Below the pieces are notes generated by a model. It worked only from the letters and a program-made list of their open reading frames with translations. It did not search any database and was not told the DNA's origin. A stretch of DNA of 54,883 nucleotides from an uncultured Bacteroidia bacterium (GTDB lineage Bacteria > Bacteroidota > Bacteroidia > Bacteroidales > Prolixibacteraceae): positions 1 through 54,883 of the forward strand of contig CAIYPA010000451.1 of assembly GCA_903927965.1 (NCBI GenBank), read 5' to 3'. A program made the position numbers and the translations under genes. Numbering within the stretch: position 1 is the stretch's first letter; each line of letters opens with the position of its first letter. This document shows positions 23,168-53,945 of this stretch, in pieces.

Positions 23168-23211
23168 GCTATCAGTTCCCACACTCTTGAATTCCCACAC
23201 TCCTGAATTGC

Positions 23212-23244: not shown

Positions 23245-23285
23245 TACTATAATTCTTTATTCTTCATTTTTAATTCTTCAATCCC

Positions 23286-24860: not shown

Positions 24861-24946
24861 AATTCATAATGAAAAAGTACTAAATTGCATCATTTTATTG
24901 TCATTTTTTACAGATTATAAAGGGCTTTAATTTAACACATTAGGTT

Positions 24947-25450
24947 ATGAATCGAATAAGCATCCGTTTAGAAACTCCTGAAATTGAATCGTCACTTGCA
25001 GAAATCAATGACAAACCTGCTACGGCTGCGCAGACAGTTATTGAACTTTTCACTTACATGCGCCAGGCTACGATCAGGGAAATTCGCGGATTATTTACAC
25101 CCAATGAACTCACTTCGATTGCGTATTTTATTAAATCGACAAAACCAGCAGTGCAAGTAATGTGTGCCCCCTCTTTTTTAATTACTGGTTTGGAGGAAGC
25201 TGAAAAAAGCAAATCTGTAGTATCAAATTATGATGTTGACCTCAAAGCACTTATTTCTAAGATTGAAAGGCTGACAACAGCTCAATCTGCAATTCTTCAG
25301 CTTGAAATCTCCTCTTATTGGGAACTCAAAAGGATTAAACCTGTAAATCCAAATTTTATGAATAGTCCGGTACCTGCAAGTGAAATTATTTCCTCCAGGA
25401 ACAGACAAAAGGCATCAGATCTTGACAAGTTGATCAAAATATTTTCATAA
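24947..25450 (+). CDS. hypothetical protein, 167 aa
   Basis: A helical soluble protein without a recognised family. It is more AT-rich than the preceding operon genes and lies next to the AT-rich cassette, so it may have arrived with it, but it is transcribed in the operon direction. 86 bases after the methyltransferase. Confidence 0.6.
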   Translation: MNRISIRLETPEIESSLAEINDKPATAAQTVIELFTYMRQATIREIRGLFTPNELTSIAYFIKSTKPAVQVMCAPSFLITGLEEAEKSKSVVSNYDVDLKALISKIERLTTAQSAILQLEISSYWELKRIKPVNPNFMNSPVPASEIISSRNRQKASDLDKLIKIFS

Positions 25451-25660
25451 TCACTAAGGTTAAGAAAATTATTTTGGGAAAATCATTTCTGGGAAATATT
25501 GTTCTTATCTAATTGATATGGAAATTTTTATAAAAAAACCAATTAATTATTTTTAAGTAACGCTAAAATCAAGTCCATCCTTATCAGGTTAATATTTGCA
25601 AGTCCAAATAATAAAATGGATTGGGTTTGGCCAATTTATTCTTTGGCTATGTTAATAAAA

Positions 25661-25669
25661 AAGGTTACT
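25661..25669. repeat. AAGGTTACT motif, copy 1 of cassette
   Basis: A 9-bp sequence covering the stop of the pyrophosphorylase gene. Same-orientation copies at 30031-30039 and 32597-32605 mark the other gene boundaries of the cassette; a fourth lies at 43807-43815. Confidence 0.5.
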
Positions 25670-26870
25670 AATCACAACATCGAATATTGTTTCGTATCTC
25701 AAATTTTGATTTTTGTTTTAATTCAGTTATGTTATGAGCAAAAAGAGGGCTTATTTCAACTTTTTTCATTTCTGGAGTTGATATTTCCACTTCTTTCAAC
25801 CAAGACAAATATAAAGAATTAAGGGCTTCTTTCGCTTTTTGTAATGAATTTATACCACTTAATGATTTTACACAAGCATATTCTTCGTTCTTATTCACGG
25901 CAAGAATGGTAATAGATTGCGTAAAATCCATTAGATCAAAGATATGTTGTTCTATTTTAAGGATATTCCTGTCATCATGTAGTGGAATAATACGATATGG
26001 TAATTCAATATTTTGATCAATAACTCTTTCTATTAAATCTAAGCTAATTACGTGTGAACCTATATTTGCTGGTAACCTTTCCCATAATTCTTGTTTGATT
26101 TCATCTTTATTGTAATACTCAATTAACTTAAGATGCCCGTTATATTCTATTATTTTGCCTAATTTCTCTGATTCCTGATAATCATTTATGGTTTTTATTG
26201 TAAACTCAGCTAGAGAAAAATCATGAAATCCTATCATTACCGGATCACAGACTTGTTCCAAAATATTTGGATATTGAAAATAGAATAAGTGCTGAATTCC
26301 TATTTCTCTAAGTTTTTTCAATAAGCCAGAATTATTTAAAGCATTAATTAATCCGCCATGACCCGTTGGATGTTCTTCGATCACATTATCTTTTGACAAA
26401 ACACATTGAAGATTGGAATCTAAAATAGGCAATGTCTCTTGTTGAATGAAATAAATATTATCTCTTGATAATCCATAAAAATCTTGCCTTTTGAAGGATT
26501 CTATGGTTCTATTATGGACAGATGGACTAGTCAGAATTATTATGGGAATATCTGAATGATATTTTTTTTGTATTGCCAATATTTTTTCAGCTTGCAACTG
26601 ATAGATTGTGCGATTGGTAACAGGGCCAATCGGCAAATTACCTCTTAAATCTGAAATTCCCATTCGGGATGAGATTCCTCCGGCAACCATAACGATGGCT
26701 ATTTTCCCCTGCTGTAACAAATGCATTCCATGATTATAAATTTCTCCTTCTATATTTTTTTTATAAAAAATCTTAGAAGGTAAATGCATTTCAACATTTT
26801 TGAGCAATATATCTTCTGTTTTACCAGCGATGATTCGATGAACAAATTCGATTTTATCCTTAATTCCCAT
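25668..26870 (-). CDS. UDP-sugar pyrophosphorylase-like nucleotidyltransferase
   Basis: A 400-residue enzyme of the UDPGP/UAP1 nucleotidyltransferase type, which joins UTP and a sugar 1-phosphate to make UDP-sugar and PPi. Visible signs in order: degenerate nucleotide loop VAGGISSRMG (62-71) followed by RGNLPIGP; GHGGLINAL, matching the uridine-binding P-x-GNGG motif; FYFQYPNILEQVCDPVMIGF, matching the metal-binding VDN-DP-F-G region; and a GSHVISLDLIERV segment. Departures (Ser in the loop, Arg for the usual Lys) mean substrate may differ. The start at 26870 is used: an earlier frame overlaps the upstream gene by 122 bases, whereas this gives an 11-bp ATG-TAA overlap. Last gene of the three-gene cassette. 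AT-rich. Confidence 0.7.
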   Translation of the reverse strand: MGIKDKIEFVHRIIAGKTEDILLKNVEMHLPSKIFYKKNIEGEIYNHGMHLLQQGKIAIVMVAGGISSRMGISDLRGNLPIGPVTNRTIYQLQAEKILAIQKKYHSDIPIIILTSPSVHNRTIESFKRQDFYGLSRDNIYFIQQETLPILDSNLQCVLSKDNVIEEHPTGHGGLINALNNSGLLKKLREIGIQHLFYFQYPNILEQVCDPVMIGFHDFSLAEFTIKTINDYQESEKLGKIIEYNGHLKLIEYYNKDEIKQELWERLPANIGSHVISLDLIERVIDQNIELPYRIIPLHDDRNILKIEQHIFDLMDFTQSITILAVNKNEEYACVKSLSGINSLQKAKEALNSLYLSWLKEVEISTPEMKKVEISPLFAHNITELKQKSKFEIRNNIRCCD

Positions 26871-29800
26871 TTGGTTTTTTGCAGTAAAAATTTGCCCAAT
26901 ATATTGATTTGGGATCATTATATAGATTATTCTTATTCCATCTGAATGTGATCTCTTCAATGCTAAATCCGGCAGCTTCAATTTTTCTCTGAGGGATTAG
27001 ATGACTATTGTAATATTCGAAAAACCTATCCCCAACCGAAATTATTGTATGATCTCCAATTTTATAATTTACAAATAACAAGCCACCGGGTTTAAGTAAG
27101 TCGAATAATTTGTGATAAATGCTCGCTGATTCCTCTTTTGGTATATGAATCATCATGGCACATGCAAATATTAAATCGAATGGTTTGTCTATAAATGGGC
27201 AATTATCAAAATTATAAATATCCCATTGATGTATTTTATTAATTCCGGTTGCTTTTTGTGCCTCATTTAGCATAACATGAGAAGCATCAAATAACGTCAC
27301 ATCAAATCCAATATCTTGTAACAATTTTGCATATTGGCCGGGGCCACATCCTAAATCCAAAGCGGTTTTCACTTCATTAAAATCCCAATCTGTAACATCC
27401 CTCAATCTTGTTACAATGGTTGTTATTGGTGTTCCTTTGTATCTTTCTGAATATAAATTATTATTATCGTAAAATGCAATAGTGGAAGTTTTTAAATTGT
27501 TATTTATAAAAGTTTTCCAACCATTCGGATTTAAACAATATTGCATATGTTCTCCGGACTCTAATTTGTTTACTAACATATCTTTGACTGATCGAACGTC
27601 AATGTCGATCGATCTATCATTAATTAATAATTCTGTCAGCATAGTTTGTAAACCGCTTTCAGTAACAATATTATTATGAACATTTAAAACAGTATTTATT
27701 TTATTTTCAATATTATTGAATTCGGATGGAAACCTACTTAAATCTGATGAATTCAAATATCTGAAAAAAGAGACACTAGTAGTATATTTGAATATTTCAG
27801 CCAATTTATGATATTTATCGAAAGTGAACAATAAAGCATTTTCAAGAGCCTCTTTCTTTTGTTTTAATTCTTCTTTTGAAATAAAGCCTAAGGTTATTAC
27901 CATCCTTTGAATTAAAGGAATATTTAAAATGGATAATAGTTCCGCAGAAAGACCCCAATCTCTATATCTGAAGATATTATCATTATTAGGATCCCTATGG
28001 TAATAAACTAAACTATTTTCTGGTTTAGTTTGGTTAAATGGTAAACCTATTCCTCCGTTATTCAATAATTCAAATAATGCTGCAATTAGTCTGTTCTTAA
28101 ATCCATCTCTAATATTGGAATTATATTCATTCTCATCTTCTTTAATGAAATAAGGTAAGTTCATTAAAAGATTTGATGTTTCCATTCGCCAGAAATTACC
28201 ATATGGTCGGAAATGAAGCAAATTATTATTGCCATAGAAAGTATTTTCAGGTTTTAAATCTAAAATATTAGGGTTAGTTACTCTATTTTCAATTCCTAAT
28301 AATTCATTCTTAATAATAGTATTTAACCTATCTAATGAACTTAATAAATCAGGCTTTAAACCATCCACAAATCCATTAGTTTCAAGTAATTCATTCAATT
28401 TGATCAATGCTGCATAAAGTGCTAGATCATGTGCTGTATCTTGTCTCCATAAATTAATATGGTTTATTAAATAGTCACTGGTTAGCTTTAATTCATCTTC
28501 AATATTTACAATTCTCATTGTTGCATTTCTGCAGAGGAGGAAAGTTATTATTCCCATAGCTGTATGTCTAATTTTAACTGGTACAGCTGCTCTTTCAGAT
28601 TGAGAAAGGCCCACTGCTCCATCAAATCCAATTTGACTTGAAATATTAGAAAATACTAATCTTGCAATAGGTTGAATTTCATTGGAAAGTCTTCCTGCAT
28701 TATTGTTATGGATTTTCTTTAAAAATTTGTAATAATGATAGAAAGCATATGTCGTTAAATCAACTCCACCATAATACCGCATTCCAGGATTACGAGGTAT
28801 ATTACCCAAATCTCCTTCCCATATTGCCTCCATCCAATTTGCCAAAGTTTTTCCCCATCCTCCTTTAGGTAACTGGTCTAATTTGAAGAAAGCATATGCT
28901 ATTCGATTTAAGTATAGTTTCTTCTCCTCAAGAATAGCTTGTTCATTTAATGTAATATTAAGACCATTAGAATTTAATTTTTCTTTTATTTGTTTAACAA
29001 TATTTACTGCATTTTGTCTGATATTAATATTCAATTCTTCGTTGCAAGCTGCAAAAATAAACTGGTATAGAAGGGCTACATTATAATTAAATTCCCAATC
29101 TATATCATTTACAATTGCGAACCTTCTTATACATTTAATAGTTTCAAATGCCTTTTTTAAATTGATATTATTATCATTATAGGTATTATCGATATTTTCC
29201 AATAATACATTTAGTTTATTTGAATCTTCATCAGGATTTTGGCAGTTAGTTAAGTAAAGGAATAATCGAATTTCACGCTCAAGTTTAGCAATATCTCGCC
29301 ATAAATGCTGTACACCTGTCAGGCCAAAATCAATAATAAATGGTATTTTGTTCGAAATAATTAAATTTCTGGAATGCAAGTCGCCATGTACAAGCATTTT
29401 TTTAGAATGATTCCACCTAGGATCTTGATCGCATTTGTTTTTTGCTTCATTAATCCAATGAATTGTTCCTGGGAGATCATCTCCAAGTCGGATTAGCTCG
29501 TTGTTTATTTTCGATGGGTTATCAAATTCATAAAGTTTAAAAGCATTCAAATTTGTTGTTCTTGGATTAAGATTATTTATGTTAAGGGAATTCTCAAATA
29601 TTATATTTATTATTTCTGTTATATTTTCATAATTGTCTGTTTTTAAATAATAATTTTCAAATGTTATTCCTTCCCTACCTCCTGTTAATTCCATAACAAT
29701 ACATCGTATGGCACCTTCAGATATATCTAAACGTATTATAGGTTTGTTATTGAAAAAATTACCTGCATGTATGGAGCCATCAATATCTTTTCCTATTTGA

Positions 29801-30015
29801 AAAGCATTGCCAATTTTAATCACAATCATATTTGGCGTTCCAACAGCAGATTCAGGAATTGCAAGATAAGTTTTTGCCCCCGAACGACCACTTACGTGCT
29901 TATCTAAATGAATAGCATTATAACCTAGTTCCAGGCATATTCTTGAAATTAGTGACCTGATTTCTTCTGGCCATTTTTCTAACCAAACTTCTATTTTTTC
30001 TTTCTGATTATTCAT
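26860..30015 (-). CDS. APH-like kinase / alpha-toroid-like / methyltransferase fusion
   Basis: A 1051-residue three-part protein. (1) Residues of about 35-350: aminoglycoside phosphotransferase/choline kinase fold, with Gly-rich SGRSGAKTYLA (42-52), VIKIG (Lys67), catalytic HGDLHSRN (210-217) and metal-binding IDFG (228-231). Such enzymes phosphorylate small molecules, including anomeric sugar kinases of the NahK kind. (2) About 360-870: helical, with GGWGKT (384-389) and IRHTAMG (481-487), reminiscent of alpha/alpha-toroid (squalene-cyclase-like) domains; this assignment is weak. (3) 870-1051: class I SAM methyltransferase with ALDLGCGPGQ (885-894). No signal peptide. It lies 19 bases after the preceding gene and overlaps the next by 11. 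This domain order is unknown to me. Confidence 0.7.
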   Translation of the reverse strand: MNNQKEKIEVWLEKWPEEIRSLISRICLELGYNAIHLDKHVSGRSGAKTYLAIPESAVGTPNMIVIKIGNAFQIGKDIDGSIHAGNFFNNKPIIRLDISEGAIRCIVMELTGGREGITFENYYLKTDNYENITEIINIIFENSLNINNLNPRTTNLNAFKLYEFDNPSKINNELIRLGDDLPGTIHWINEAKNKCDQDPRWNHSKKMLVHGDLHSRNLIISNKIPFIIDFGLTGVQHLWRDIAKLEREIRLFLYLTNCQNPDEDSNKLNVLLENIDNTYNDNNINLKKAFETIKCIRRFAIVNDIDWEFNYNVALLYQFIFAACNEELNINIRQNAVNIVKQIKEKLNSNGLNITLNEQAILEEKKLYLNRIAYAFFKLDQLPKGGWGKTLANWMEAIWEGDLGNIPRNPGMRYYGGVDLTTYAFYHYYKFLKKIHNNNAGRLSNEIQPIARLVFSNISSQIGFDGAVGLSQSERAAVPVKIRHTAMGIITFLLCRNATMRIVNIEDELKLTSDYLINHINLWRQDTAHDLALYAALIKLNELLETNGFVDGLKPDLLSSLDRLNTIIKNELLGIENRVTNPNILDLKPENTFYGNNNLLHFRPYGNFWRMETSNLLMNLPYFIKEDENEYNSNIRDGFKNRLIAALFELLNNGGIGLPFNQTKPENSLVYYHRDPNNDNIFRYRDWGLSAELLSILNIPLIQRMVITLGFISKEELKQKKEALENALLFTFDKYHKLAEIFKYTTSVSFFRYLNSSDLSRFPSEFNNIENKINTVLNVHNNIVTESGLQTMLTELLINDRSIDIDVRSVKDMLVNKLESGEHMQYCLNPNGWKTFINNNLKTSTIAFYDNNNLYSERYKGTPITTIVTRLRDVTDWDFNEVKTALDLGCGPGQYAKLLQDIGFDVTLFDASHVMLNEAQKATGINKIHQWDIYNFDNCPFIDKPFDLIFACAMMIHIPKEESASIYHKLFDLLKPGGLLFVNYKIGDHTIISVGDRFFEYYNSHLIPQRKIEAAGFSIEEITFRWNKNNLYNDPKSIYWANFYCKKPNGN

Positions 30016-30030
30016 AGTTTCTATTTTAAT

Positions 30031-30039
30031 AAGGTTACT
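30031..30039. repeat. AAGGTTACT motif, copy 2 of cassette
   Basis: Covers the stop codon of the HIT-methyltransferase-ThiL gene, in the 19-bp gap between the two fusion genes. Confidence 0.5.
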
Positions 30040-32581
30040 TAACTGAAATATACAGTGGTTCTTGCTGCATTTTAACGAAATAATCTTTTATTCCATGCGA
30101 AAAGTAAGAGAATTGGGTAAACCGTTCACTAGCAATGTAATTCAATTCACCAGACTCATCCTTATCTTTAAACCAAACTTTTCCCGTACCGCTTTCAACT
30201 TTGCCTAAACAATATACCGGGCAGTTTATTTCATTCATTAATTTCTGCAGTTTTGGCAAATTTTCTGGTAATATAGTACAAACCAATTCCCAATCCCCCC
30301 AGGATAGCATCACTTTTCTGTAATCAATATCAATACTATCCGATATCTTTTTTACAATTGGATCCGGTTCAATATTTGAAAGATCAATATGAATGTCAAC
30401 ATTGTGACTGCTTTTAGCAATTCCATAAAACGTTGATATTAAACCATCAGAACTATCCATTGCGCAATATGACAAATTATTGGAAGCTATTATCATTCCT
30501 TCTTTAATCCTTGGAATGGGCCGTTTTAAGTTTTTTTGTATTTTATCATAATCTTCCTTTTTAATATTTAATACAAGATTTGGAAACAACTTACTGATTG
30601 TTCCGGACCAAAATAATCCCATATCGCCTAAAACAATTACTAATTCACCAGCTTTTGCCATGTCTCTTCGAAGTACTTTTTCAGGATGAACACTTCCAAA
30701 AGCTGTACAAACGCTATTAAAATTTTGTGAATCTTTGATGTTTCCTCCAATAATCGGACAGCTAAATTGAATAGATGCTTCAATTATTCCTGCATAAAAT
30801 CGGTCAAAATCATTTATGCTCATATCATTATTGGCTTCCAATGCTAAAAGAATACCGGTAGGTTTAGCACCCATCGCCCCTAAATCGCTGATATTTATAA
30901 TCATAGAAAACCAGCCGTAATACCAGTAATCAATTTCTTCAAAATAAGTAATGACAGGTTTGGGGCAAGGATCAGAAGTAACAACAACAATTTCATCTTT
31001 TATTGGTTTAAACCCGGCACAATCGTCACCTATTCCGACAATAATGTCCTGATCAGTTTCTTTTGGAATCAGTTTAAAAATATGTTCTAAAATATTTCTT
31101 TCGCCTAAATCTTTTAGTGTCACTACTTCTTTCTTAACAATAAATTGTCTCCATATTTTATCTGTATCATCACCAAAAGTCCCCGTAGAAACGACATTAT
31201 CCCACTGCTCAATAATTGTGAAGCCAATTTTTTTGAATAAATCTGTTAATTCTTCTTTAGAGTAATAAATATACATTCTTCCCTCAGGACGTACGATCGA
31301 ATCACCCCCACTCTGAGCGGATAAATATAAAATTCCGTTCGGTTTAAGTATCGAATAAAATTTTTTTAATGTTTCAAGAACTTTGATCTTAGGTAAATGG
31401 ACAAAGACAGCACTACACCAGATCCCATCAAAAATATTTGGCGGGAAATCAGACTGAACGATATTCATTTTATAAAGCTGAGGAAAGGTATCCTGCAAAT
31501 AATGAACCTTGTAATCGTCCTTTTTATGGGGTTCGGATGAAATCAATTCGCTTGAAATTTTAAGCATCTCTTCTGAAATGTCAATTCCGATACATTTCAA
31601 TCCCAGATCATTAAATACCCTTAAATAAGTACCAGGTCCACAACCGGCATCAAGAATTAGGGGTCGGATAGGATCTTTATCACTTATTGAGTATTCGGGT
31701 AAACGGTTTAAAAACCGGCCAATCACATTGTATTGCTCCAGGCCTTTCCATTTATTAAAATAAGTAGAAGCTACAGAATTGTTACCAATAATATTAGTTT
31801 TGATTATGGATTCTACAAAATCAATATTATATAAGCCATTTTCATTTTGCTTAATGGCGTATTTTTTTGAATTTTTCTCAAACCAATTTTTAAAATCAGT
31901 GACTAATTTGTCAACTGAGCCTTTTTGGGGATATCTAGCCCAATCCCATAAATCCTCTGAACCAATTTTCCTTGCTAATAATCTTCTAAGGAATTGAGAT
32001 GGTATTTCATCGTTTTCGTTCAATACAACTATTCTTGCTTCCCATTTTTCCCGCTTGGTGGAATTCTCTTTTTCTTTTTCATTAACAATAGAATTCTGAA
32101 TAAATAAATAAGAGGAATCTTGAACAGATGAAGCCAAATCCGAAAATCCGTTTATCTGTTTTACTTTTAAATTTTCGATGTTATCCCAGATCGATTCGCT
32201 TTGTGGAAAGCAACATAAGTGTGCATGATGACAGTGTTTAGTGAATAATGAGTCCATTATACACATAGGAGTTCTTCCATGTTCAAAGTGCATTCCCCCG
32301 CCTTTTGATTTATAATTGTCTTTATAAAAACGAGAAATAATTTCCCTAAGAAATATTACCTCATCAATAAGTTCCGGTTTCATATCAGCAAAGGAATGAA
32401 AAAGGCCATTTTCACCTTCGCAAGAGTATGGTGTAATAATAATGTATCCGTCAACAATCGGTCCTAATCCTGCAAACAAATAAAAGTTGTCGGATTTAAG
32501 CAGTATTTGATTTCCTTGTTTAAATTTAGATGGTTCACAAAATAAACAGTGCTTTTGAAATTTCTCTTCATTATTTTCCAT
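30035..32581 (-). CDS. HIT / methyltransferase / ThiL-like kinase fusion
   Basis: An 848-residue three-part protein. (1) Residues 1-about 240: histidine-triad (HIT) nucleotide hydrolase/transferase domain, with the N-terminal zinc pair HCLFC (11-15), HFEHG, the triad-type CHHAHLCCFP (117-126) and a PSQFLRRLLA segment. (2) About 290-485: SAM methyltransferase with LDAGCGPGTYL (310-320). (3) About 490-830: ThiL/AIR-synthase-type ATP-using domain, with VGIGDDC (515-521) and SDLGAMGAKP (565-574), as in thiamine-monophosphate kinase. The canonical triad spacing is altered by an extra His. First gene of the cassette. Nothing else for thiamine synthesis is present, so the ThiL-like part probably phosphorylates another substrate. 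Confidence 0.7.
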   Translation of the reverse strand: MENNEEKFQKHCLFCEPSKFKQGNQILLKSDNFYLFAGLGPIVDGYIIITPYSCEGENGLFHSFADMKPELIDEVIFLREIISRFYKDNYKSKGGGMHFEHGRTPMCIMDSLFTKHCHHAHLCCFPQSESIWDNIENLKVKQINGFSDLASSVQDSSYLFIQNSIVNEKEKENSTKREKWEARIVVLNENDEIPSQFLRRLLARKIGSEDLWDWARYPQKGSVDKLVTDFKNWFEKNSKKYAIKQNENGLYNIDFVESIIKTNIIGNNSVASTYFNKWKGLEQYNVIGRFLNRLPEYSISDKDPIRPLILDAGCGPGTYLRVFNDLGLKCIGIDISEEMLKISSELISSEPHKKDDYKVHYLQDTFPQLYKMNIVQSDFPPNIFDGIWCSAVFVHLPKIKVLETLKKFYSILKPNGILYLSAQSGGDSIVRPEGRMYIYYSKEELTDLFKKIGFTIIEQWDNVVSTGTFGDDTDKIWRQFIVKKEVVTLKDLGERNILEHIFKLIPKETDQDIIVGIGDDCAGFKPIKDEIVVVTSDPCPKPVITYFEEIDYWYYGWFSMIINISDLGAMGAKPTGILLALEANNDMSINDFDRFYAGIIEASIQFSCPIIGGNIKDSQNFNSVCTAFGSVHPEKVLRRDMAKAGELVIVLGDMGLFWSGTISKLFPNLVLNIKKEDYDKIQKNLKRPIPRIKEGMIIASNNLSYCAMDSSDGLISTFYGIAKSSHNVDIHIDLSNIEPDPIVKKISDSIDIDYRKVMLSWGDWELVCTILPENLPKLQKLMNEINCPVYCLGKVESGTGKVWFKDKDESGELNYIASERFTQFSYFSHGIKDYFVKMQQEPLYISVK

Positions 32582-33223
32582 TATTTTATTTAATTTAAGG
32601 TTACTTTAATTCAGCTATTATTTTAATCGCTTGTTTTAAACTACTTATGCAAGTCACATAAAATATCAATTTATCAGATATTGGTTTAGTGAAAAAGGAA
32701 GGTTTTTGCAAGTTATTGTTCAAGTGTAAGCTCTATCTGTTTGCTAAAAATTTGCTGGAATGTAGTTTTGTTTTGCCATTTTCTTCTTTCTTTTTTGAGA
32801 TTGGGAAAAAAACAAAATAAGTTCCTCCAATTTTCATCAACCTATCAAAGAACTAAATGTTATTTAAATATTGTATTTATTTATCTGGGGTGCAATTTTT
32901 TAAACTTACAACTATTTATATTTAAGTATCGAAAAACAACACAAAATCTTCCATTTTAGGAATATATTCCGTTCCCCAGTTTCTTATTATCAAAACTATT
33001 CAAGGAAAAAAAATCCAAATTATTAGGCAAAGTTAAAAAATAACTTTCAACATTCAAAATATTTAATTAATTATTCTTTATTGATTGATTATTTTTTCAG
33101 CCTAATATAACCTTTGTTTTCTGATAAATAGGCTTATTTTAATCGGAAATTCGTTGCAATATTGGCAATAATGAAGAGGTTTGTCCTACTTATATTATTT
33201 CAATTTTATTAAATACTCAAATT
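32582..33223. other. AT-rich spacer with divergent promoters
   Basis: About 640 bp without a credible gene. It must contain the leftward promoter of the cassette and the rightward promoter of the ligase gene. The third same-orientation AAGGTTACT lies at 32597-32605. A near match to the Bacteroidota -7 box (TAACCTTTG) is at about 33107. Nothing else recognised. Confidence 0.45.
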
Positions 33224-34153
33224 ATGAAAGACCGAATCCAAAAACTTCGTGAAACAATCGATCACCACAACCACCAATACTATGTGTTGGGATCACCGGA
33301 AATACCGGATGCTGTTTTTGACAGGATGTTCCAAAAACTGATCGAACTTGAAGCCCAATACCCGGAATTTTATGTGGCCAACTCGCCTTCATCGCGCATC
33401 GGTTCCGACCTTTGCAATTCGTTCAACATGGCCAGCCATATCACGCCAATGCATTCGATTAATGCTGTCCAAACAGTGACCGAAATCGAAAAATTCATTG
33501 CCAAGGGTGAAATAATTGTACAGCTTAAATATGATGGTGTAGGGGTAAACCTCATATATAAAAACGGAAAGCTCCATCGGGCGATCACCAGGGGCGATGG
33601 GGGCAAGGGAATTGACGTTACCGCCAATATCCGTACAATCGGAAATATACCTTATGCAATTAATACAAATGAAACAATAGAAATACGTGGCGAGGTCTGG
33701 TGCCCATGGTCGGAGTTAAAGCGTTTGCAAAACCTTGGGGAGAATGTCCGATCCCCGGTCGCAGTGGCCATCAATTCGATAAAGGTAAAACAGAGCAGCC
33801 TCTGCGCGGCCCGCAACCTGAGTTTTACAGCATACCACCTGACCGAAGGTATTGCAGGGACAAGCCATTTAGAAAACATCAAGTGGCTTAAAGACAACCA
33901 TTTTGAGGTGCCGATAGCCTTTAAGTTGGATGCTACATTAAAGGCAATACGGCACAGTATCCTTTCGATCCAGGGCATCCTTAAACAGGCACAGGTCAAG
34001 GACATTCCTGCCGATGGGATCGTGTTCAAGCACAATGACCTATTGACATGCAAGACAGAAGGCAATACGTCACGTGCGGTGAATTGGGCAATCTCCTGGA
34101 AATTTGACAAGGAGACCTATACTGCGAAAGTGGCCGGGATCGGGGGAAAGTAG
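33224..34153 (+). CDS. ligA: NAD-dependent DNA ligase, zero-frame part
   Basis: NAD+-dependent ligase: domain Ia at residues 1-60 (HNHQYYVLGSPEIPD, then SPSSRIG) binds NMN. The adenylation domain has the nucleophile motif LKYDG (Lys102), TRGDGGKGIDVT and EIRGEVW. Translation ends at TAG (34151-34153) directly after G GGA AAG (34144-34150), a canonical -1 slippery heptamer identical to the phage lambda G-T site. The -1 frame continues as the ligase OB fold and zinc finger. The zero-frame product, 309 aa, could adenylate itself but should not seal nicks well. A homopolymer error in GGGGGAAA is the alternative. Confidence 0.8.
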   Translation: MKDRIQKLRETIDHHNHQYYVLGSPEIPDAVFDRMFQKLIELEAQYPEFYVANSPSSRIGSDLCNSFNMASHITPMHSINAVQTVTEIEKFIAKGEIIVQLKYDGVGVNLIYKNGKLHRAITRGDGGKGIDVTANIRTIGNIPYAINTNETIEIRGEVWCPWSELKRLQNLGENVRSPVAVAINSIKVKQSSLCAARNLSFTAYHLTEGIAGTSHLENIKWLKDNHFEVPIAFKLDATLKAIRHSILSIQGILKQAQVKDIPADGIVFKHNDLLTCKTEGNTSRAVNWAISWKFDKETYTAKVAGIGGK

Positions 34154-34662
34154 CCGCAAATGGACGTGTTACCCCTTTAGTATTTATTGACCCAATTATG
34201 GCCAACAACGAAACAATCTCCAAAATTCCTGTTACGCCAGCCGATCTCGATACGGGAATCCAGGTAGGTCAAACCATCACCATCCGAAGGGCAGGGACAC
34301 GCGTGGCACAAATTGTTATAAATTCAAGTGCAACCGCCCCATCGGAATTCAGGTGCCCGCAATGTTCTTCAATACTGGTCCGCCATAAAAATGTATTCTA
34401 TTGTCCCATAAATTGTTACAATTTGGAAACCCCTCCTGTTGGCGAGGAATATGCTTTGGTACACGCACCCAATATTTCAAGCTACTGCATCGACCCTGCA
34501 ATGGCCCAATACATTGCCCATCAAAACAATTGCAGGTTGGTCCCGGTTTCTGGTAAATTTCATGGGTGCAAGCTCTATTACAACGACCTGAAGCAACTTG
34601 CCGACATCGGATTTGCCCTTGGCGGTTATGCCAAAAAATTCCAGGCAACTGTTCCTGTTTGA
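34150..34662 (+). CDS. ligA: NAD-dependent DNA ligase, -1 frame OB/zinc-finger part
   Basis: Directly after the slip the frame reads VAANGRVTPLVFIDP, then GIQVGQTITIRRAG. This corresponds to the LigA OB-fold (normally GRTG-LTP-A-LEPV and IGD-V-V-RAG). A four-cysteine zinc finger follows (CPQCSSIL...CPINC). The remaining ~75 residues are diverged. HhH and BRCT domains are absent, giving a 479-residue joined ligase instead of about 670. An internal ATG at 34198 could start a separate protein, but homology begins before it, supporting joining by frameshift. Confidence 0.75.
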   Translation, partial: VAANGRVTPLVFIDPIMANNETISKIPVTPADLDTGIQVGQTITIRRAGTRVAQIVINSSATAPSEFRCPQCSSILVRHKNVFYCPINCYNLETPPVGEEYALVHAPNISSYCIDPAMAQYIAHQNNCRLVPVSGKFHGCKLYYNDLKQLADIGFALGGYAKKFQATVPV

Positions 34663-34742
34663 CCAGAAAAGGCCAAATACCTTGGCCGGCAACTTTCCCA
34701 TTTTCTTCAAATTCAAATTACTAACAACTTAATCTTGGTACT

Positions 34743-46396: not shown

Positions 46397-49300
46397 TCAA
46401 TTCTTAAAACTAATGCACCAGTTTTCGGCTACTAATTGTTGATCTCCTTTATAATAATCAGCATGGGCTTTAATCGCATTGTAAACATATTCTGTACGAT
46501 CATAAGCTTTTCCATCTACAAAATGATAAAGCTTCCAATTTTCGGCCTTTTGTTCTGCGAAATAAAGAATTTTTAGTCGTTCGTTTTCTGAGAGGTATAT
46601 AGACTGATTATTTTGCGATGATTTAATTTCAACAGTATTAAAACGCTTTAACCTTCCCTCTTCAATAATTGGTTCTAAAATATCATAACCCAAGCCATCA
46701 CCTAAGGCTTCTGAAACGTGTAGCAGTTTGGCCAATGATTCAATATCGACTTTGTCTGGAATTTTTAATCTCTTTAACTCCTCAATATTATGAATATGTT
46801 CATTTAAAAAGGGTACCAATTCATGATTTAGCAATTCTTGAGCATATTTTGTTGCTAAAATTTTCTCCATACAAATGCCCCTATTATGTTGATCCTTAAT
46901 TATTTTTTCACGTTCTTGATAAGTTCTTTTAACTGTATGTGTTTCCGATTTCCCAAACGAGGAAACAGACTGAAGTTTTACTTCTGTTGAAATTGTCGGT
47001 ACTAATTCTAAATTTTCCGGTAATCCAAGGTTCTTTTTTAAATCTAAAATATTAAGTTCTGCTTTGGCCTTATCAATTGAAAATGAATCTAATTCAGATG
47101 TAATTCCCAAAATGGAATAGCATTGAGAAAGACCAAAATTAAAATTATGAAATTCTAATGGAATTACTTTCGATTTTATTAATTTGTCGAATGATTCATT
47201 TGCAAGTACTTTGTTATGAAAAGCATAGTAACAAATCTGGAGATAATCTCTATGTTCGATAAAAAATTTAAGATTTGCTTCGTAAGGATTTATTAAATTT
47301 AGCAATGCTTCAAATTTGGATGTATTTTCGTATTTCATTTCTAAATTTTCAATTACCTTACTTGTAAGAAAGGGAAATGACAAGTCATAATAATTGTATT
47401 TTTCTTTCCAGTTTTCCTTGTTAACATTTTCACAAATGAAAGAAATGGCATTTAGAAACGATTCCATTTCTTTACTATTAATAACTGAGGCTTTTATAAA
47501 ATTCTTTGATTGGTTTAATTCATTTTCTCCTATACCTTTTTCTTTTAAATATTCACTTGCACTCAATAGATCAAATTGTTTTTTTTGAATGTAGTTCGAA
47601 ATTATATCTCCAAAATTTTGATTTCTGAAAACTGAATCAGCAATAGCATACCCAAACTTTGAAAGGTTAGGATCATTCTCGTAATCTTCTAAATCATAAG
47701 CTAATAAGCCTACTGATTCCTTTATGGATCCTCGCAAGTTCTTACTTAAGGGTTTATATAAAACCTCCTTTCGAACATCTTTATAAAGTTGTATTATATT
47801 GTTGTTAAATGAAACCTCCAGCCATACGTCATTTGCTTTGTAGATATTAAGATTTTGCCAACGAAATATACAATCTTCTTTGTCAAAATCAATTGTAGAA
47901 ATGGCGATTTCTGCTAAAGCAAAGAAGTCCGGAATATAATTGGTTTCCAAAAAAAGCTTTATTTCAGAATCGATTTCCAATTGATCCATTTCAGGCTTAA
48001 TCTTAAATTCCGGTTCAAAACGTTTGACAAAACTTAAGTTATCAATAAAACTCAATGCAGTATTTACGTCGAAATTCACAAAATTATAGTTAGGGAAATG
48101 ATGGATGTATTTTCTATGATCAAACGGAACGAACCAACAGTTCTCTTCCAAATATTTACCTTGAGTTGTTAATAAAGGAATTTCTTTAATGTTGGCATCT
48201 TTTAATCTTGAGATCCTAAGAACTAATTGTTTATAAACCGTTTTGTGATTCTCACCTACCTCTAAATTCTTCATCATTTCTAGTTGGGTGATTATTTTCC
48301 CTATATTTTCAGTTTCATCAATAGATTGAATATTTAAAAAATGATACAATTCTTTTAGTTCATTTGACTTTTGTTCTTGAGCAATACATTTTCTAGGACG
48401 TAAATCATTAAAAAGAAAAACTTTTGATGGAGCAACAACCGATTTATTTGCCTCGTCATAAAACCAGGATTCAGATTTTAGGATTTTTATTAACTCCTCT
48501 TTCCCAACTAAATTTTGCCAATCCGGAATTGAATTATTAATCAGTATTTTTAATTGATTATTATTAAGTTGCGGAAAGTTTATAAATGGCAATTTTAATT
48601 TATTATTTTCATACTGAATAGGAAGGGAGGCTTGCCAAACCCCAAGTTTTTTCAAAATTAATTTGAATTCTCCTGGATCCGATTTATCATTTTCAATTAA
48701 TTTCCTGAAGGCGTCAATATCTAATTCAAAAAATAAATCACTATTTAAATATCCCTTAATTTCAGAGGGTATTTCTGTATAACATCGTATTGCTTCATTC
48801 CATTTTCCGTTTTTACAGGGAAGCTTAATTCTGGCCAATTGACGTTCAATTTTGTCATCTGTTAAATAGAATTGTTTTTCTGTTTTATTCCCAAAATCTG
48901 ATATCAGGTTGAGAACAAATATTAATATTCTTTGATTGAAATTTGTTATATCTGTTTCATTATTAATTTTTTCATTATTGATGGCTCTTATAATTTCAAT
49001 TTTATTATATTTCCGTACAACTTTAGTATAATCAAAATATTCCCGTTCGATTGGATCGAAATTAGTTATGGAAACGTTTTTTAGTTCACTAATTATGTTG
49101 CTTTCGAATATTGAACCATCATCTTTGCGAAAAAATAATTTTTTGGATGACTCTCTGCGGGGTAAATAATCGATATAGCTTATCGTATCCCCTTCAAAGG
49201 TAGGCACGATGAAAATAGAGGGATCACAAAAATGCCGAATCGTATCATTATATATCTTATTATAGTAAGAATCCCATTTCTCATTGGAGTTGTGGTTTCG

Positions 49301-50611
49301 TTTCCAACAATCAATTACATCGAAAATAAGCATGTAAGAGTCCTTTCCCCATTTTCTATCTTTAGTATAAACCTTTTTTAGAATTGAACTTATTAATAAG
49401 GAATTGAAAAGCTCTTCACTAAAAATCTTTTCAATTTTTTCTTCTCGGTTAAGGGGCAGTAAAAATTTACCAAAATATGGCAATTCGTGTAACTCTGTTT
49501 TATTTAAAAGCGTTTCAACAAATAGTTTTGCCAAATGCGTAAGAAGTTTCTTATTGTAAGGATTATTTTCAAAATCAATCTGTTTGCGGGATACATCCAA
49601 TAAAAAATCACCATGCATCAGCACATTAAATCCACATTTTACTTCTGTTGGTAGATAACAATAAAAATTGGAACGGAAAGTCGTATCAAGACTTATGTTT
49701 TGCTTTAATGGGAAAGCTATAGCTATTTTGGGATTTTCAATCCTATAATTTAATTTGGAAGAAAGTTCTTGAAGTTCCACAAGTTCTTCTTTACTAAATT
49801 CTTTACTTTCGATGGACCAATCTGCAAAATCGACCTGAGTGTTTAAGGTCTTTCTAAAGGAATCATTTACAAGAAGTTCTAGTTTTACGTTCGAGTGTTT
49901 CAATTTATCAAGTTGTTGTACAAAAAAGATCTGATGTTCAGAAAATTCTATAATCTTGTTGCTTAATAACACAATGTTTTCGTCAGTTAAATCTTGAAAC
50001 TGTATTACTGTTTTTGCATCATTCAATGATTCAAAAAAATCATTGGCATTTTCAATGGGTAAAGGGAAATAAAAGGATGGAATTTGATTGGCATTATTTT
50101 TAAAAACTTGGGAATAGTCATTATTTGATTTCCACTTTTCTATCAAGTCCATTCCAAAAGGTGAGACGATATTATCTATTGTAAGTGGATTATGCAATTC
50201 AAAGCCCCATTTTGTGTTTTCAAATACTGAACACACCGTGACTTTTTTTGTATATTCCCAGCACGATTTAAACCCAACACCTTTGTTGCCAATTGATTCA
50301 TTTTGGTTCTTACTACTGGTATTAATTGAGCATAAGGATTCTAAATCAGAGTAGTTTCTGTTTCCTCGTTCAATGGAAAATACTTCTCCATCATTAGCAA
50401 TAGTAAGTGTACGTTGCAATTTATTGAGATGAATCCAAATTTTGTTTTCAGCCCGATCAATGGCATTCTGGAAAAATTCATAGATAGCCCTACCACGGTA
50501 GTCATTGGTAATTCCATTCTCATTTTTGATATGGCCATCTAAGGTCTTAGGTGGATTTTTGACCGATTCAGAATATATATCTAGCAAGGCGGCTTCGATT
50601 TTAGGATTCAT
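46397..50611 (-). CDS. sacsin-like GHKL ATPase with NOV/DUF3883 C-terminal nuclease-like domain
   Basis: A 1404-residue protein. The N-terminus is a GHKL (Hsp90/sacsin-type) ATPase: EFFQNA (45-50, N box), NDGEV (73-77, G1) and GNKGVGFKS (108-116, G2 lid). About 1000 residues of helical, unassigned sequence follow. The C-terminus (about 1315-1404) matches the NOV/DUF3883 domain: GDGLGYDI, then NTVEIKSS (E-x-K) and a helix with S-ENE. This is a PD-(D/E)XK-like layout. Proteins of this plan occur in bacterial defence islands, presumably as ATP-controlled effectors. It lies 34 bases after the DUF4268 gene, so the pair probably acts together. AT-rich compared with the phage genes. Confidence 0.75.
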   Translation of the reverse strand: MNPKIEAALLDIYSESVKNPPKTLDGHIKNENGITNDYRGRAIYEFFQNAIDRAENKIWIHLNKLQRTLTIANDGEVFSIERGNRNYSDLESLCSINTSSKNQNESIGNKGVGFKSCWEYTKKVTVCSVFENTKWGFELHNPLTIDNIVSPFGMDLIEKWKSNNDYSQVFKNNANQIPSFYFPLPIENANDFFESLNDAKTVIQFQDLTDENIVLLSNKIIEFSEHQIFFVQQLDKLKHSNVKLELLVNDSFRKTLNTQVDFADWSIESKEFSKEELVELQELSSKLNYRIENPKIAIAFPLKQNISLDTTFRSNFYCYLPTEVKCGFNVLMHGDFLLDVSRKQIDFENNPYNKKLLTHLAKLFVETLLNKTELHELPYFGKFLLPLNREEKIEKIFSEELFNSLLISSILKKVYTKDRKWGKDSYMLIFDVIDCWKRNHNSNEKWDSYYNKIYNDTIRHFCDPSIFIVPTFEGDTISYIDYLPRRESSKKLFFRKDDGSIFESNIISELKNVSITNFDPIEREYFDYTKVVRKYNKIEIIRAINNEKINNETDITNFNQRILIFVLNLISDFGNKTEKQFYLTDDKIERQLARIKLPCKNGKWNEAIRCYTEIPSEIKGYLNSDLFFELDIDAFRKLIENDKSDPGEFKLILKKLGVWQASLPIQYENNKLKLPFINFPQLNNNQLKILINNSIPDWQNLVGKEELIKILKSESWFYDEANKSVVAPSKVFLFNDLRPRKCIAQEQKSNELKELYHFLNIQSIDETENIGKIITQLEMMKNLEVGENHKTVYKQLVLRISRLKDANIKEIPLLTTQGKYLEENCWFVPFDHRKYIHHFPNYNFVNFDVNTALSFIDNLSFVKRFEPEFKIKPEMDQLEIDSEIKLFLETNYIPDFFALAEIAISTIDFDKEDCIFRWQNLNIYKANDVWLEVSFNNNIIQLYKDVRKEVLYKPLSKNLRGSIKESVGLLAYDLEDYENDPNLSKFGYAIADSVFRNQNFGDIISNYIQKKQFDLLSASEYLKEKGIGENELNQSKNFIKASVINSKEMESFLNAISFICENVNKENWKEKYNYYDLSFPFLTSKVIENLEMKYENTSKFEALLNLINPYEANLKFFIEHRDYLQICYYAFHNKVLANESFDKLIKSKVIPLEFHNFNFGLSQCYSILGITSELDSFSIDKAKAELNILDLKKNLGLPENLELVPTISTEVKLQSVSSFGKSETHTVKRTYQEREKIIKDQHNRGICMEKILATKYAQELLNHELVPFLNEHIHNIEELKRLKIPDKVDIESLAKLLHVSEALGDGLGYDILEPIIEEGRLKRFNTVEIKSSQNNQSIYLSENERLKILYFAEQKAENWKLYHFVDGKAYDRTEYVYNAIKAHADYYKGDQQLVAENWCISFKN

Positions 50612-50645
50612 ATTTAAAGATATTAATAGTTGGCTTTATTTATTC

Positions 50646-51782
50646 TTATTTCAATTTTAATTCATTTTTAGCGTAGCTATTCAGTTTTTTAATTGGTTCT
50701 TTAATAGCGTTTGCCAGTCTTTCGGAATGATCAACCAGAAAAGCTGACATTTTGGGCCAGTCGCTTTTATTGAATATATCCACATCTTCAACTCTTGAAT
50801 AAATCCGGCAGGATATTTTATCGGTCATTTTGGTCCAAATAAGAGGTTCTCCATATTTAGTTTCAATTTCTGATTGCATCGCATGCATAAAGTCGAAAAG
50901 CGCCTCATTTTCAGTTTTGTCACCTCTATTAAAATAAATTTCAACCCCTGCATACTTTTGGGTAACTGTTAAGTTCAAGTTGACCCCGCTCATTCCGATT
51001 CCAAGGCCTATCCAATTGTCTTTTGATGGACTGATGTTTGCGAAAAGAATGTTCTTCTTATTCGATTCAGCGAGAAAATAAGTCCAAAATTCCAATCGTA
51101 AATAATGCCTTGCTTTTAGGCCTTCTTGAGTTGCGATTTCATCCTGGGCTTTAGTTGCCATGCTGATTGTGAACTCCTCCGTATCTTTTAATGGTAAAAT
51201 CTGTTCAATATCGAGCATCAGATTATCATCATGAGCGATGGGAGTCACTTTGATACATTGAATTCTGAGCATAAAACTTCTGAGCCATAAAACTGCTGAT
51301 GTTACCTCTTTCCGGAAACTACCTGCAACCATAATTATGCGTTGGGTACTTCCTTGATTAAGTAATATATCATCAAATTCTTTATTGTCCATGAATTCCG
51401 AAATCTTCTCTTCAGCTGTACATCCAATACTTTGTTTCTTTAAATATGCTTGGTATATATTACAGATTTGCTCCTTACTTAAGCTGGCACAATACGAGGC
51501 ATATTTTATTACCTGCCATGTTACATCTTTTCCGCTAGTATCGAGTTTGTTTTCAATAATAACAAGGTTGCCAAGTTTATCGATTGCAAGTAAATCCAAA
51601 CGTTCACTGGTATCGAAAAAACCATCGAATTCTTTTTGAATGATCAATAATTCCTCTCCCAGGCAGGAAGGATTTTTGGCTATCCATTCCTGGAGATGCT
51701 TACGTTCAACAAAGCCAAGTTCTGAAAATGATTTTTCCGGAAGGAGACTGATCGAGTTGTTTTTTTTGTCAATTAAATACAT
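50646..51782 (-). CDS. DUF4268 PD-(D/E)XK nuclease-like protein
   Basis: A 378-residue protein. The N-terminal nuclease fold has RLDLLAID (61-68; Asp63) and IIENKLD (75-81; Glu77-x-Lys79). The C-terminal half fits DUF4268, with a beta-rich region and W-x-K-M near 325. DUF4268 proteins are frequent in restriction and defence contexts. Likely cleaves DNA under control of the neighbouring ATPase. Second-last gene of the leftward cluster. Confidence 0.7.
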   Translation of the reverse strand: MYLIDKKNNSISLLPEKSFSELGFVERKHLQEWIAKNPSCLGEELLIIQKEFDGFFDTSERLDLLAIDKLGNLVIIENKLDTSGKDVTWQVIKYASYCASLSKEQICNIYQAYLKKQSIGCTAEEKISEFMDNKEFDDILLNQGSTQRIIMVAGSFRKEVTSAVLWLRSFMLRIQCIKVTPIAHDDNLMLDIEQILPLKDTEEFTISMATKAQDEIATQEGLKARHYLRLEFWTYFLAESNKKNILFANISPSKDNWIGLGIGMSGVNLNLTVTQKYAGVEIYFNRGDKTENEALFDFMHAMQSEIETKYGEPLIWTKMTDKISCRIYSRVEDVDIFNKSDWPKMSAFLVDHSERLANAIKEPIKKLNSYAKNELKLK

Positions 51783-51844
51783 TCTGTAATCTTTGTTACG
51801 TTAGAATCAATAAGCGGTCTTTAAACTATTTTTATTATAATGTT

Positions 51845-52861
51845 TTATGCCGACTCCTTAAAAATAGGAAAAGCAAGTTCTTTGGAAAGGTAGTCTTCAA
51901 TCTTGAAATCCCGTTTCTCAGCTGCTTCTGTAAATTTCTGAATCCATTCCAAAAGACTCGTATTTAAGCCTCTGGTGCGCATTGCATAATTTTGGATTAT
52001 TTTGTAATCTTCTTGATGACTTAAAATGTCTGTAATTACATTAAAGGCAGAATAAGCATTTTCTCCAAGCTTTTCAACATATTTAATAACCAGCCTATTT
52101 GAAAGATCCCTGAGATTGCAGCCTTCTTCAAGTATCCCTGCTTGATTCGGCAATTTATACTCTGGAAACAATAATCCTTCTGAAGTTTTTGACTCATAAT
52201 TCAACTTCAATGCTTTACATACTAAAGGGAAAATATATTTTTTTGGTAAAAAGAATCTCTTCAGGTTAAGCATGTGACTAATAAATTCGTTTTCAAGCCC
52301 CTTCAATTTTTGAATATCTGCCTTTATCTCCCAGTCTTGTTTTCGCTTAGTATGGTTTATTTTCACTGTAACTGTCTTTTTGTCAAAAATCATCCCATTA
52401 CTACATAATTTTCGCACAAATCCGATTTCAAACAATAAAGCATACATTTTATTATAACTATTTGTAACTCGGATAATGGGGTACCAAGTGTCTTGATCAA
52501 AAACATTAAAATTTATATCCTTGTGAATTAAATCGATATGGCAAAATGTTTTTCTTTTTGGAGCAATCACCTTGAAAGGAATCAAATCTTTTGCTTTGAT
52601 ACTTGGAAAAAGATGAACAAACACCTGTTTACCAATATTTAACGCATCAGAATTATGAATTAGCCTATAATCTTTGGAAACAACGCTTAGGCATTCCCTG
52701 TTCATTTTGTTGATAACTGACAGATATTCAGTTATATTTAATGACTCTTTTTGAGGATAATTTTCTGAACTGAACGGTTTTGTTATTATTGAAATCAACT
52801 CAACATCAAACATTAAATCATTAAGCTCGTGCGTCGCTGGAGAAAAATCAAGTTCTTTCAT
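51845..52861 (-). CDS. DUF932-like protein
   Basis: A 338-residue protein with CLSVVSKDYRLIHNSDAL near 57-74, the hallmark of the DUF932 family found on phages, plasmids and defence loci. The function of DUF932 is unknown. An AT-rich gene in the defence-like cluster. Confidence 0.6.
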   Translation of the reverse strand: MKELDFSPATHELNDLMFDVELISIITKPFSSENYPQKESLNITEYLSVINKMNRECLSVVSKDYRLIHNSDALNIGKQVFVHLFPSIKAKDLIPFKVIAPKRKTFCHIDLIHKDINFNVFDQDTWYPIIRVTNSYNKMYALLFEIGFVRKLCSNGMIFDKKTVTVKINHTKRKQDWEIKADIQKLKGLENEFISHMLNLKRFFLPKKYIFPLVCKALKLNYESKTSEGLLFPEYKLPNQAGILEEGCNLRDLSNRLVIKYVEKLGENAYSAFNVITDILSHQEDYKIIQNYAMRTRGLNTSLLEWIQKFTEAAEKRDFKIEDYLSKELAFPIFKESA

Positions 52862-52970
52862 AAGAGCATATTGTTAATTGGTTATTATTAAAGTTGATCG
52901 TTATTTTATTTTGTTGCTTTGTTACTTTGATACGAACAATATAGTTTGCACCGCCTTTTATCAAAATCCG

Positions 52971-53945
52971 TTAACTCCAATACCGTTGCTCCAGGTATTG
53001 AATTGCAGCCATAGCACCTGGAATATACCTGGCAGGTTCCAAAAAATCTTTTGGGTCAATAGCGCGGTATTTCACCGGTGATTTCAGCAAATTCGACCAG
53101 GTTTCCTGGAGTGTTAAACCTGGTAGGATTCCCCTTGAAGGATTTACTAGCTTTAGTTCCTTATTGTCAGTAGGAATAAGATGCAAATGGATATAGTCTG
53201 TTGCTCCGAAGTCATTTGCCTTTATCATTTCGTTTGCCAAAAGTGTTTGCCGCATTAATTGATAAAATGGTTCATAAAAAATACCCTCAATAAACTGATC
53301 GCTCATTTCCGGAATATTGATTGGGCAATCTTCTTTTGTTAAGAGGGGTATATAGGTTGCCTTTCGTCTTTGGCCACTTTCGTCATTAAATTTTGATGGC
53401 TTACCAGCATAGTTCTCAACGTATTTCCACTCAATAAAGAATAATTTCCGTGAACCATCTTCCATCTCTGCAAGCATAACTGCATCTACTGATGTTGAAT
53501 GTGCTCCACGAGAATGTCTTTTCTCCTTCAAATAGTTTTCCTTACCGATTACTTCAAGGGAAACAAATCCCTGGTAAGTTTTGTCGTTGTCTAATCGGAG
53601 CGCAATTTTCACGTTCTTGTCAACGCTCTTAAGGATGGCTGTGGCAATTTCTTGATCATGTCTGAAGAATAACAGATGATTTATACATGCAACTTGTGAC
53701 GACAGCATGTGACCCGAAGGTTTGTTAATGCCACTGGGTCGTGTTTCACCAGTATTCCAGAATGGAATCTTGTTGTCAGAGAAATAAATTTCAGCTTCAT
53801 TTCTGACTTCTTCCATTAAGTTTAATTCAGGATTCTTTAGAACGAATTCCCTTGGAATATTAAAGAATAGTCCATGTCCCGGATCACCTGTTATTTTGTC
53901 CCGAAGCCTGATGCATTTATCTCGTTGTTGGTTGTAGAAGGTCAT
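52971..53945 (-). CDS. PGN_0703-like PD-(D/E)XK restriction endonuclease
   Basis: A 324-residue protein. HMLSSQVACINHLLFFRHD (79-97) followed by SVDAVMLAEME (Asp154) and FFIEWKY (Glu172-x-Lys174) fits the PD-(D/E)XK active site of the PGN_0703 family of putative restriction endonucleases. No methyltransferase is adjacent, so it may be type IV-like or act with its neighbours. 109 bases from the DUF932 gene. Confidence 0.7.
   Translation of the reverse strand: MTFYNQQRDKCIRLRDKITGDPGHGLFFNIPREFVLKNPELNLMEEVRNEAEIYFSDNKIPFWNTGETRPSGINKPSGHMLSSQVACINHLLFFRHDQEIATAILKSVDKNVKIALRLDNDKTYQGFVSLEVIGKENYLKEKRHSRGAHSTSVDAVMLAEMEDGSRKLFFIEWKYVENYAGKPSKFNDESGQRRKATYIPLLTKEDCPINIPEMSDQFIEGIFYEPFYQLMRQTLLANEMIKANDFGATDYIHLHLIPTDNKELKLVNPSRGILPGLTLQETWSNLLKSPVKYRAIDPKDFLEPARYIPGAMAAIQYLEQRYWS

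Follow-up and report, generated by a model that had tools for sequence, protein, structure and literature searches.

What do three AT-rich genes, two of them encoding large fused enzymes, contribute to a phage-like element in a Bacteroidota genome? The window, meaning the whole stretch of DNA that was analyzed, is a single contig of 54,883 bases with phage genes, and it comes from a 7.57-Mb genome in 584 contigs (completeness 98.03, contamination 4.41%). Its phage nature is indicated by a head maturation protease match (7.5e-38; E values are given in this form throughout), other PHROG matches, and DUF6712.

An AT-rich operon in a phage-like element

A preliminary description of this DNA proposed a three-gene leftward operon of strong AT bias, gained horizontally and embedded in a rightward phage-like block. 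The ORF coordinates bear out the operon. Three ORFs without an internal stop lie on the minus strand and encode P3 (848 aa; 30035..32581), P2 (1051 aa; 26860..30015), and P1 (25668..26870), with a 19-bp gap between P3 and P2 (30016–30034) and an 11-bp overlap between P2 and P1 (26860–26870). P1 most likely starts at the ATG at 26870, which gives 400 aa; a longer TTG form of 437 aa extends to 26981. The AT bias is equally clear. The GC content of the three genes is 30–33%, and their GC3 is 0.22–0.27 versus 0.53–0.66 in the six backbone genes measured; six 6-kb samples from other contigs of the genome have a GC content of 39–45%. The rightward setting holds for about 7–25 kb and for 33.2–35.1 kb, but the large genes from 35.2 kb onward run leftward.

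On the left, the operon is bordered by a backbone gene on the plus strand (24947..25450). On the right, beyond an AT-rich intergenic stretch (32582..33223) that separates divergent genes, comes the adenylation domain of an NAD-dependent DNA ligase (33224..34153, plus strand). Only the N-terminal and adenylation domains of this 309-aa ligase were recognized; its counterpart in the related viral record described below has 484 aa. Promoters in Bacteroidota follow the consensus TTTG-N-TAnnTTTG, and two sites of this type precede P3 on the minus strand: TTTG-N19-TAACTTTG (33028..33058, 447–477 nt upstream) and TTTG-N17-TAGTTTTG (32991..33019, 410–438 nt upstream). Two such sites upstream of P3 were reached in none of 2000 mononucleotide shuffles, and one promoter-like match in the same stretch points toward the ligase (32740). 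Neither terminator-like sites (1 against 3.2 expected) nor sigma-70-like sites (41 against 46.9 expected) were enriched, and Rfam gave 0 matches. The arrangement as a whole supports a single operon.

The most informative relative is the viral record IMGVR_UViG_3300025153_000204 (L051; 47,549 bases), which has a backbone in common with the window. Identities are 60% for the 23286 gene, 44% for the 24947 gene, 67% for the ligase, 79% for the 35173 gene, 86% for the 42077 gene, and 89% for the head-protease-like gene. Between its homologs of the 24947 gene and the ligase, L051 has only a 213-aa ORF with no Pfam match, and this ORF has no trace in the window (best tblastn E value 7.7). Since L051 shares the backbone but carries only the 213-aa ORF at this place, the operon looks like optional cargo, although a single relative is a small basis for that claim. 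Together with the composition, the replacement also supports the horizontal gain that had been suggested. In a comparison that took in 14 of 17 viral loci whole and L058 and L060 in part, but not L059, L051 was the sole record syntenic around the site. A viral scan with the 35173 gene returned only this same record, and nothing was gained from viral scans with P3, two HIT alignments, and the ligase or from a megablast of 23000–35100 against phages.

Backbone genes of both elements include further enzymes. In the window, 37759–41643 encodes a glycosyltransferase with two domains and a protein that matches Stealth weakly (below its cut-off), both kept in L051 (63% and 61%). L051 also carries, between backbone genes at 13101–15194, a 697-aa AT-rich (33%) ORF that has no counterpart in the window and matches neither a PADLOC model nor, above cut-off, any Pfam family.

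No exact terminal repeats of 20–299 bases were found on the contig, its first and last 600 bases have no 15-mers in common, and no integrase was found among the window ORFs scanned. A related contig, G475:C399 (35,261 bases, possibly a fragment), has counterparts of 11 genes of the window (26–47%) as well as an integrase-like ORF, recognized by eye. Because the window belongs to a bacterial genome assembly and this related contig has the integrase-like ORF, the element is probably temperate. A widespread unit of phage plus operon was considered; G475:C399 matches these 11 genes yet lacks any P1–P3 match over its (possibly fragmentary) length. The three genes together had no second occurrence in the genomes, plasmids, and viral and phage sequences searched, so the co-occurring homologs that the preliminary description proposed to look for did not appear. 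Its statement that no pathway with this set is known agrees with the partial collection of literature covered, where no described cluster of the three genes was found.

Enzyme families of the three proteins

Domain matches support the enzyme families first proposed for phosphorylation, methylation, and nucleotidyl transfer. P1 matches Pfam UDPGP (PF01704) over most of its length (1e-31; 110.5 bits against a cut-off of 22). By PDB sequence comparison, its nearest neighbors are UDP-N-acetylglucosamine pyrophosphorylases (4.3e-40, next 2.9e-33), ahead of the UTP-glucose-1-phosphate uridylyltransferases (best 4.6e-13). Compared with three PDB pyrophosphorylases, P1 differs at several motifs, with SSRMG for GTRLG/ATRLG and GHGG for GNGG; in the same three alignments it has Arg in place of the PKG Lys and YPN for VDN, putting Pro at the place of the Asp. 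This Lys and Asp are usually conserved in UDPGP proteins, and with such residues changed the activity of P1 may be altered. P1 is thus best described as UDPGP-like, of uncertain activity as judged from its residues, and it departs from the family as well in being encoded in a phage-like element. Matches to P1 occur in 6 of 395 genomes of the phylum, its own included (best other 8.7e-8). Those elsewhere include UDPGP genes at two loci, L085 and L086 (25–26%), with no P2 match beside either. In L085, an ORF two genes from the UDPGP gene has a weak match (24%, 3.7e-4) to the methyltransferase region of P3.

P2 combines an APH-like kinase, a region without a recognized family, and a class I methyltransferase. 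The kinase part (residues 1–350; 28966..30015, minus strand) passes the Pfam APH cut-off (2e-8; 34.8 bits against 23.2) over residues 188–245 only. It has VIKIG (65), HGDLHSRN (210), and IDFG (228), which contain the HGDxHxxN and DFG signatures of such kinases. Sugar salvage of the NahK kind, which had been offered as the logic of the operon, is unsupported: the APH match covers the catalytic stretch only and no NahK-type enzyme is among the matches, so that idea draws on fold families alone. The methyltransferase (residues 831–1051; 26863..27525, minus strand; LDLGCGPG at 886) is clear, its best model matching at 9.3e-16 over about residues 886–978, above the Pfam cut-off.

The middle of P2 (residues 351–830; 27526..28965, minus strand) had been described as toroid-like, and this was not confirmed. 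It has no Pfam match at E values up to 1. For residues 365–825, no PDB sequence match fell below 0.36, and the single-sequence model, mostly helical, is unreliable (pLDDT 34.3). A toroid of the LanC-like or terpenoid-cyclase kind therefore found no sequence match, and the sole model for it is this low-confidence one. Homology of the middle part to neighbors of HIT genes (L068, L071, L073, L074, L082, and L083) was also tried, and single-sequence hhalign gave it no support.

Residues 1–820 of P2 are rarely matched. They were found in 1 of 61 relatives, that one being the source genome itself, and at an E value of 0.01 in 6 of 395 genomes of the phylum, of which one is again its own and the other five have short matches (2e-4 to 7.8e-3). 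One of 200 further genomes matched (7.8e-4, over the kinase stretch), and two other sets gave none of 6 and none of 119. None of 26 pattern stretches from a genome-contig search was confirmed, nor the 1 from viral contigs, and phages had none. The only positive control in the genome searches was the source genome, which makes an empty result elsewhere weak evidence. Whole P2 matched 32 plasmid records, and the best 20 matches all begin at residue 840 or later.

A system acting on proteins or nucleic acids, with the APH-like part as a protein-kinase-like sensor or effector comparable to TCAD9 conflict proteins and the middle of P2 as a partner-binding scaffold, seems improbable. A TCAD9 match (3.8e-8, below its cut-off) does lie over the kinase motif, and two weak matches to the P2 kinase sit in proteins of 536 and 546 aa that seem, by eye, to begin with a receiver-like part; in the PDB the kinase comes closest to RIO2, though not significantly (0.064). 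APH itself, however, is above its cut-off, and the partner genes of such systems were not recognized.

P3 joins a HIT-like domain, treated below, to a second methyltransferase and a ThiL-like kinase. The methyltransferase (residues 288–460; 31202..31720, minus strand; LDAGCGPG at 310) matches its best model at 7.1e-17, above the Pfam cut-off, so that both methyltransferases of the preliminary description stand. It is 28% identical to that of P2, and its best PDB match is a D-glucose O-methyltransferase (1.9e-6).

The ThiL-like part (residues 485–848; 30038..31129, minus strand) exceeds the equivalog cut-off of TIGR01379 (190.6 bits against 184.15). It largely keeps the ATP and metal motifs of ThiL: GIGDD, TSD with the TTD aspartate, SDLGAMGA, DSSDGL, and GDWE. 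It differs in being fused behind a HIT-like domain and a methyltransferase, and in having GGNI in place of the GGDT found in all four aligned ThiL proteins of relatives, so that the GGD aspartate is missing. For this last reason it is filed as ThiL-like and not as ThiL. Identity to the four is 27–30%, and the source genome has a separate ThiL match (G000:C224). Whole P3 matched 134 of 140 genomes of the family, and among the matches listed nearly all came through ThiL and none other than its own spanned HIT and ThiL. That the ThiL-like part is an ordinary thiamin-cluster gene was rejected: the eight high-scoring relatives opened are unfused, at 26–31% identity. All eight lie in thiamin-salvage neighborhoods (gene identities by eye). 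In four of them, the gene row contains a methyltransferase-like ORF, also by eye (L043 6319–7017; L044 5112–5822; L045 11075–11785; L050 11342–12052), so P3 is not alone in having a methyltransferase close to ThiL.

The altered residues in three domains, the single occurrence of the operon, and its source in a 584-contig assembly with 4.41% contamination would fit a decaying or misassembled island without function. This is highly unlikely. There are 2299 open codons in an AT-rich region, the operon is tightly spaced and has promoter-like sites, most motifs are kept, and the flanks are common to the independent viral record L051. The preliminary description had tied its case to co-occurring homologs and to domains that are not degenerate; the former were not found in the sequences searched, and degeneracy is not clear despite the Cys and GGNI in P3 and the two residues lost in P1.

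The HIT-like domain and its relatives

The HIT assignment in P3 (residues 1–240; 31862..32581, minus strand) rests on alignment and fold. P3 itself has no match to HIT Pfam models at E values up to 1, but its first 290 residues align with sets of three to eleven HIT-like proteins. The best relative, from Halomonas salicampi (L068; 30%), passes the cut-off of CwfJ_C_1, a HIT-like Pfam model. The domain carries FEHG (99) and KHCHHAHLCC (115). In an 11-row alignment, EHG, the second histidine, and the C-terminal Q and R positions are kept in all rows, and the first histidine in 10 (Phe in L012). The third position is His in 10 of the 11 and Cys in P3 alone, leaving two histidines of the triad. 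The second histidine, which is the nucleophile in HIT enzymes, is retained. A model of the domain from eight sequences (pLDDT 66.8, pTM 0.73) gave 280 fold matches with E values up to 10, five of them at or below 0.001. The best is PDB 8ro1, an intron-lariat spliceosome (2.9e-7), and the other four are three chains of the HIT-like protein 3lb5 and one DUF4931 protein; the weaker matches include FHIT, other HIT, and GalT-like entries. The fold and two of the three histidines thus agree with HIT, whereas a direct Pfam match and an intact triad are lacking. P3 also differs in architecture, as by eye the HIT relatives opened are single-domain proteins or have a membrane segment ahead of the domain, whereas in P3 the domain is fused to a methyltransferase and a ThiL-like kinase.

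Residues 1–300 of P3 matched 5 of 395 genomes of the phylum, including its own (best other 6.2e-6). Neighborhoods were compared at 14 HIT loci, namely the 8 confirmed of 59 pattern stretches in a second genome scan and 6 plasmid records; L012, L014, L015, and L078 are not among them, nor are two plasmid records, from Listeria and Sulfitobacter, that match in part. Judged by their organism names, the HIT loci opened come from six phyla. Among the selected neighbors scanned, nucleotide-metabolism genes (above Pfam cut-off or annotated) lie near HIT in 5 of the 14 loci and in three phyla, Pseudomonadota, Bacteroidota, and Actinomycetota; the other 9 have no clear nucleotide-enzyme neighbor, although two of these, L073 and L074, have a sub-cut-off MazG-like or PRA-PH match in a third gene. 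In L068 (9406–10910), DUF1599 and HIT are followed, near the contig end, by a 78-aa ORF without a Pfam match. L082 has PRA-PH near HIT, with annotated ThyX and DHFR; L083 has a dCTP-deaminase-like protein with an annotated NTP pyrophosphohydrolase, and L084 has an annotated NTP pyrophosphohydrolase. The fifth locus, L081, has PRPP-type and phosphoribosyltransferase-family genes. A class V aminotransferase is part of the HIT operon or row in L079, L081, and L083 (Pfam) and in L080 and L084 (annotation). No sugar-salvage set was seen among the selected neighbors at the 14 loci.

Other arrangements also occur. In L073 (9986–13699), L071 (10001–13664), and L072 (6769–8027), HIT is followed by a small protein that appears by eye to be a membrane protein, making what looks like a recurring uncharacterized set. 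In L071 and L073 an 816- or 839-aa protein comes next, that of L073 having a sub-cut-off MazG-like match. In Maribellus luteus (L069 8189–10663), a gene that looks DUF4062-like by eye precedes an apparently membrane-anchored HIT protein.

On plasmid pRL1 of Rhizobium leguminosarum (L081 593–12329), HIT lies within a row of about 14 ORFs. The four scanned match a nucleotidyltransferase, a PRPP-synthetase/phosphoribosyltransferase-type protein, an aminotransferase, and Glycos_transf_3, so that the row looks like a biosynthetic cluster. This row lends some weight to the idea that P1–P3 form an antibiotic- or nucleoside-like natural product pathway, carried as phage cargo to kill competitors, as does a HIT relative in Lactococcus, where the next protein matches EamA below the cut-off. 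A fused set of kinase, methyltransferase, and nucleotidyltransferase would fit such a pathway. The idea is nevertheless rather unlikely, for the operon has just three genes, neither an exporter nor an immunity gene was recognized, and a similar cluster was not found.

Defense setting and possible function

A second AT-rich block on the minus strand (46397..53945), outside the operon, encodes a TmtA-like ATPase, PDC-S11, DUF932, and REase-ARP. With PADLOC models, the TmtA match of the 1404-aa ATPase reaches 9.1e-49 and that of the PDC-S11/DUF4268 protein 2.6e-154, and the block is probably a defense block. In both the window and L051, such a second AT-rich block lies after the 45701 gene. In L051 (record G960, 26.4–44.6 kb; L091 and L092), it holds matches to QatD, QatC, QatB (weak, 6.9e-7), and QatA, followed by BrxL, PglZ, PglX, and BrxC. 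Between its PglZ and PglX matches lies a 548-aa protein with a partial match to a pAgo model (2.1e-22).

By these model matches the element lineage is a carrier of defense-type genes, which does not make P1–P3 a defense system. PADLOC found only mad2 and MTase_II models on P1–P3, over the methyltransferase stretches, and otherwise no component of a known system. Qat, which includes a QueC-like protein, and the other cargo defense systems resemble the operon in belonging to AT-rich blocks of the same element lineage; in contrast, no protein shared by these systems and P1–P3 was found, and the site differs.

What is directly established for P1–P3 is an intact operon, its enzyme families, and the lack of the operon at the corresponding place of one relative. 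From there, the APH-like and ThiL-like domains might perform a two-step ATP-dependent phosphorylation of a small molecule, and P1 would join the phosphate so formed to a nucleotide, which is most likely UMP supplied by UTP. With its second histidine retained, the HIT-like domain could use this residue to transfer or remove the nucleotidyl group, and the two methyltransferases would cap the product, a sugar or nucleoside compound that is methylated and nucleotide-linked. Defense or competition on behalf of the lysogen would be its most likely use, because the other cargo block is of anti-phage type and genes of nucleotide metabolism are found around some HIT relatives; location and HIT neighborhoods likewise make defense or competition more likely than ordinary metabolism.

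Our best explanation, held tentatively and at less than an even chance, is therefore that P1–P3 are a cargo operon of a phage-like element of Bacteroidota that makes a methylated nucleotide-linked compound for defense or competition. In its favor, the kinase, ThiL, and methyltransferase motifs are largely kept and the domain matches exceed curated cut-offs. Against it, P1 (Lys, Asp), the HIT domain (third His), and the ThiL-like domain (GGD aspartate) are altered at usually conserved residues; the operon also sits at a different site from the known defense genes, 9 of the 14 HIT loci are without a clear nucleotide-enzyme neighbor, and no second copy of the operon was seen. That this is an undescribed system, in which novel HIT/ThiL/APH/UDPGP chemistry would make a methylated nucleotide-linked molecule serve as an anti-phage weapon or alarm, with the HIT branch recurring elsewhere, is a more doubtful proposition.

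A serious rival, if an unlikely one, is lysogenic conversion, in which an O-methylated UDP-sugar would alter the surface glycan of the host and block superinfection. The proximity of P1 to UDP-GlcNAc pyrophosphorylases, the glucose O-methyltransferase match of P3, and the glycosyltransferase and weak Stealth match of the backbone all speak for it. Yet no glycosyltransferase, flippase, or membrane protein was recognized within the operon, the glycosyltransferases are also present in L051, where this site carries no such operon, and the HIT relatives with nucleotide-metabolism neighbors point away from surface glycans.

On balance, the observations of the preliminary description largely hold, and its interpretation is partly supported. 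The newness lies in the architecture, within what was searched, and would shrink if the product were an ordinary modified UDP-sugar. If the cargo reading with a methylated nucleotide-linked compound is true, the operon brings an enzymatic logic that is new to the cargo of mobile elements, with two multidomain fusion enzymes and one nucleotidyltransferase making an activated small molecule. The finding also points to a little-studied branch of HIT proteins.
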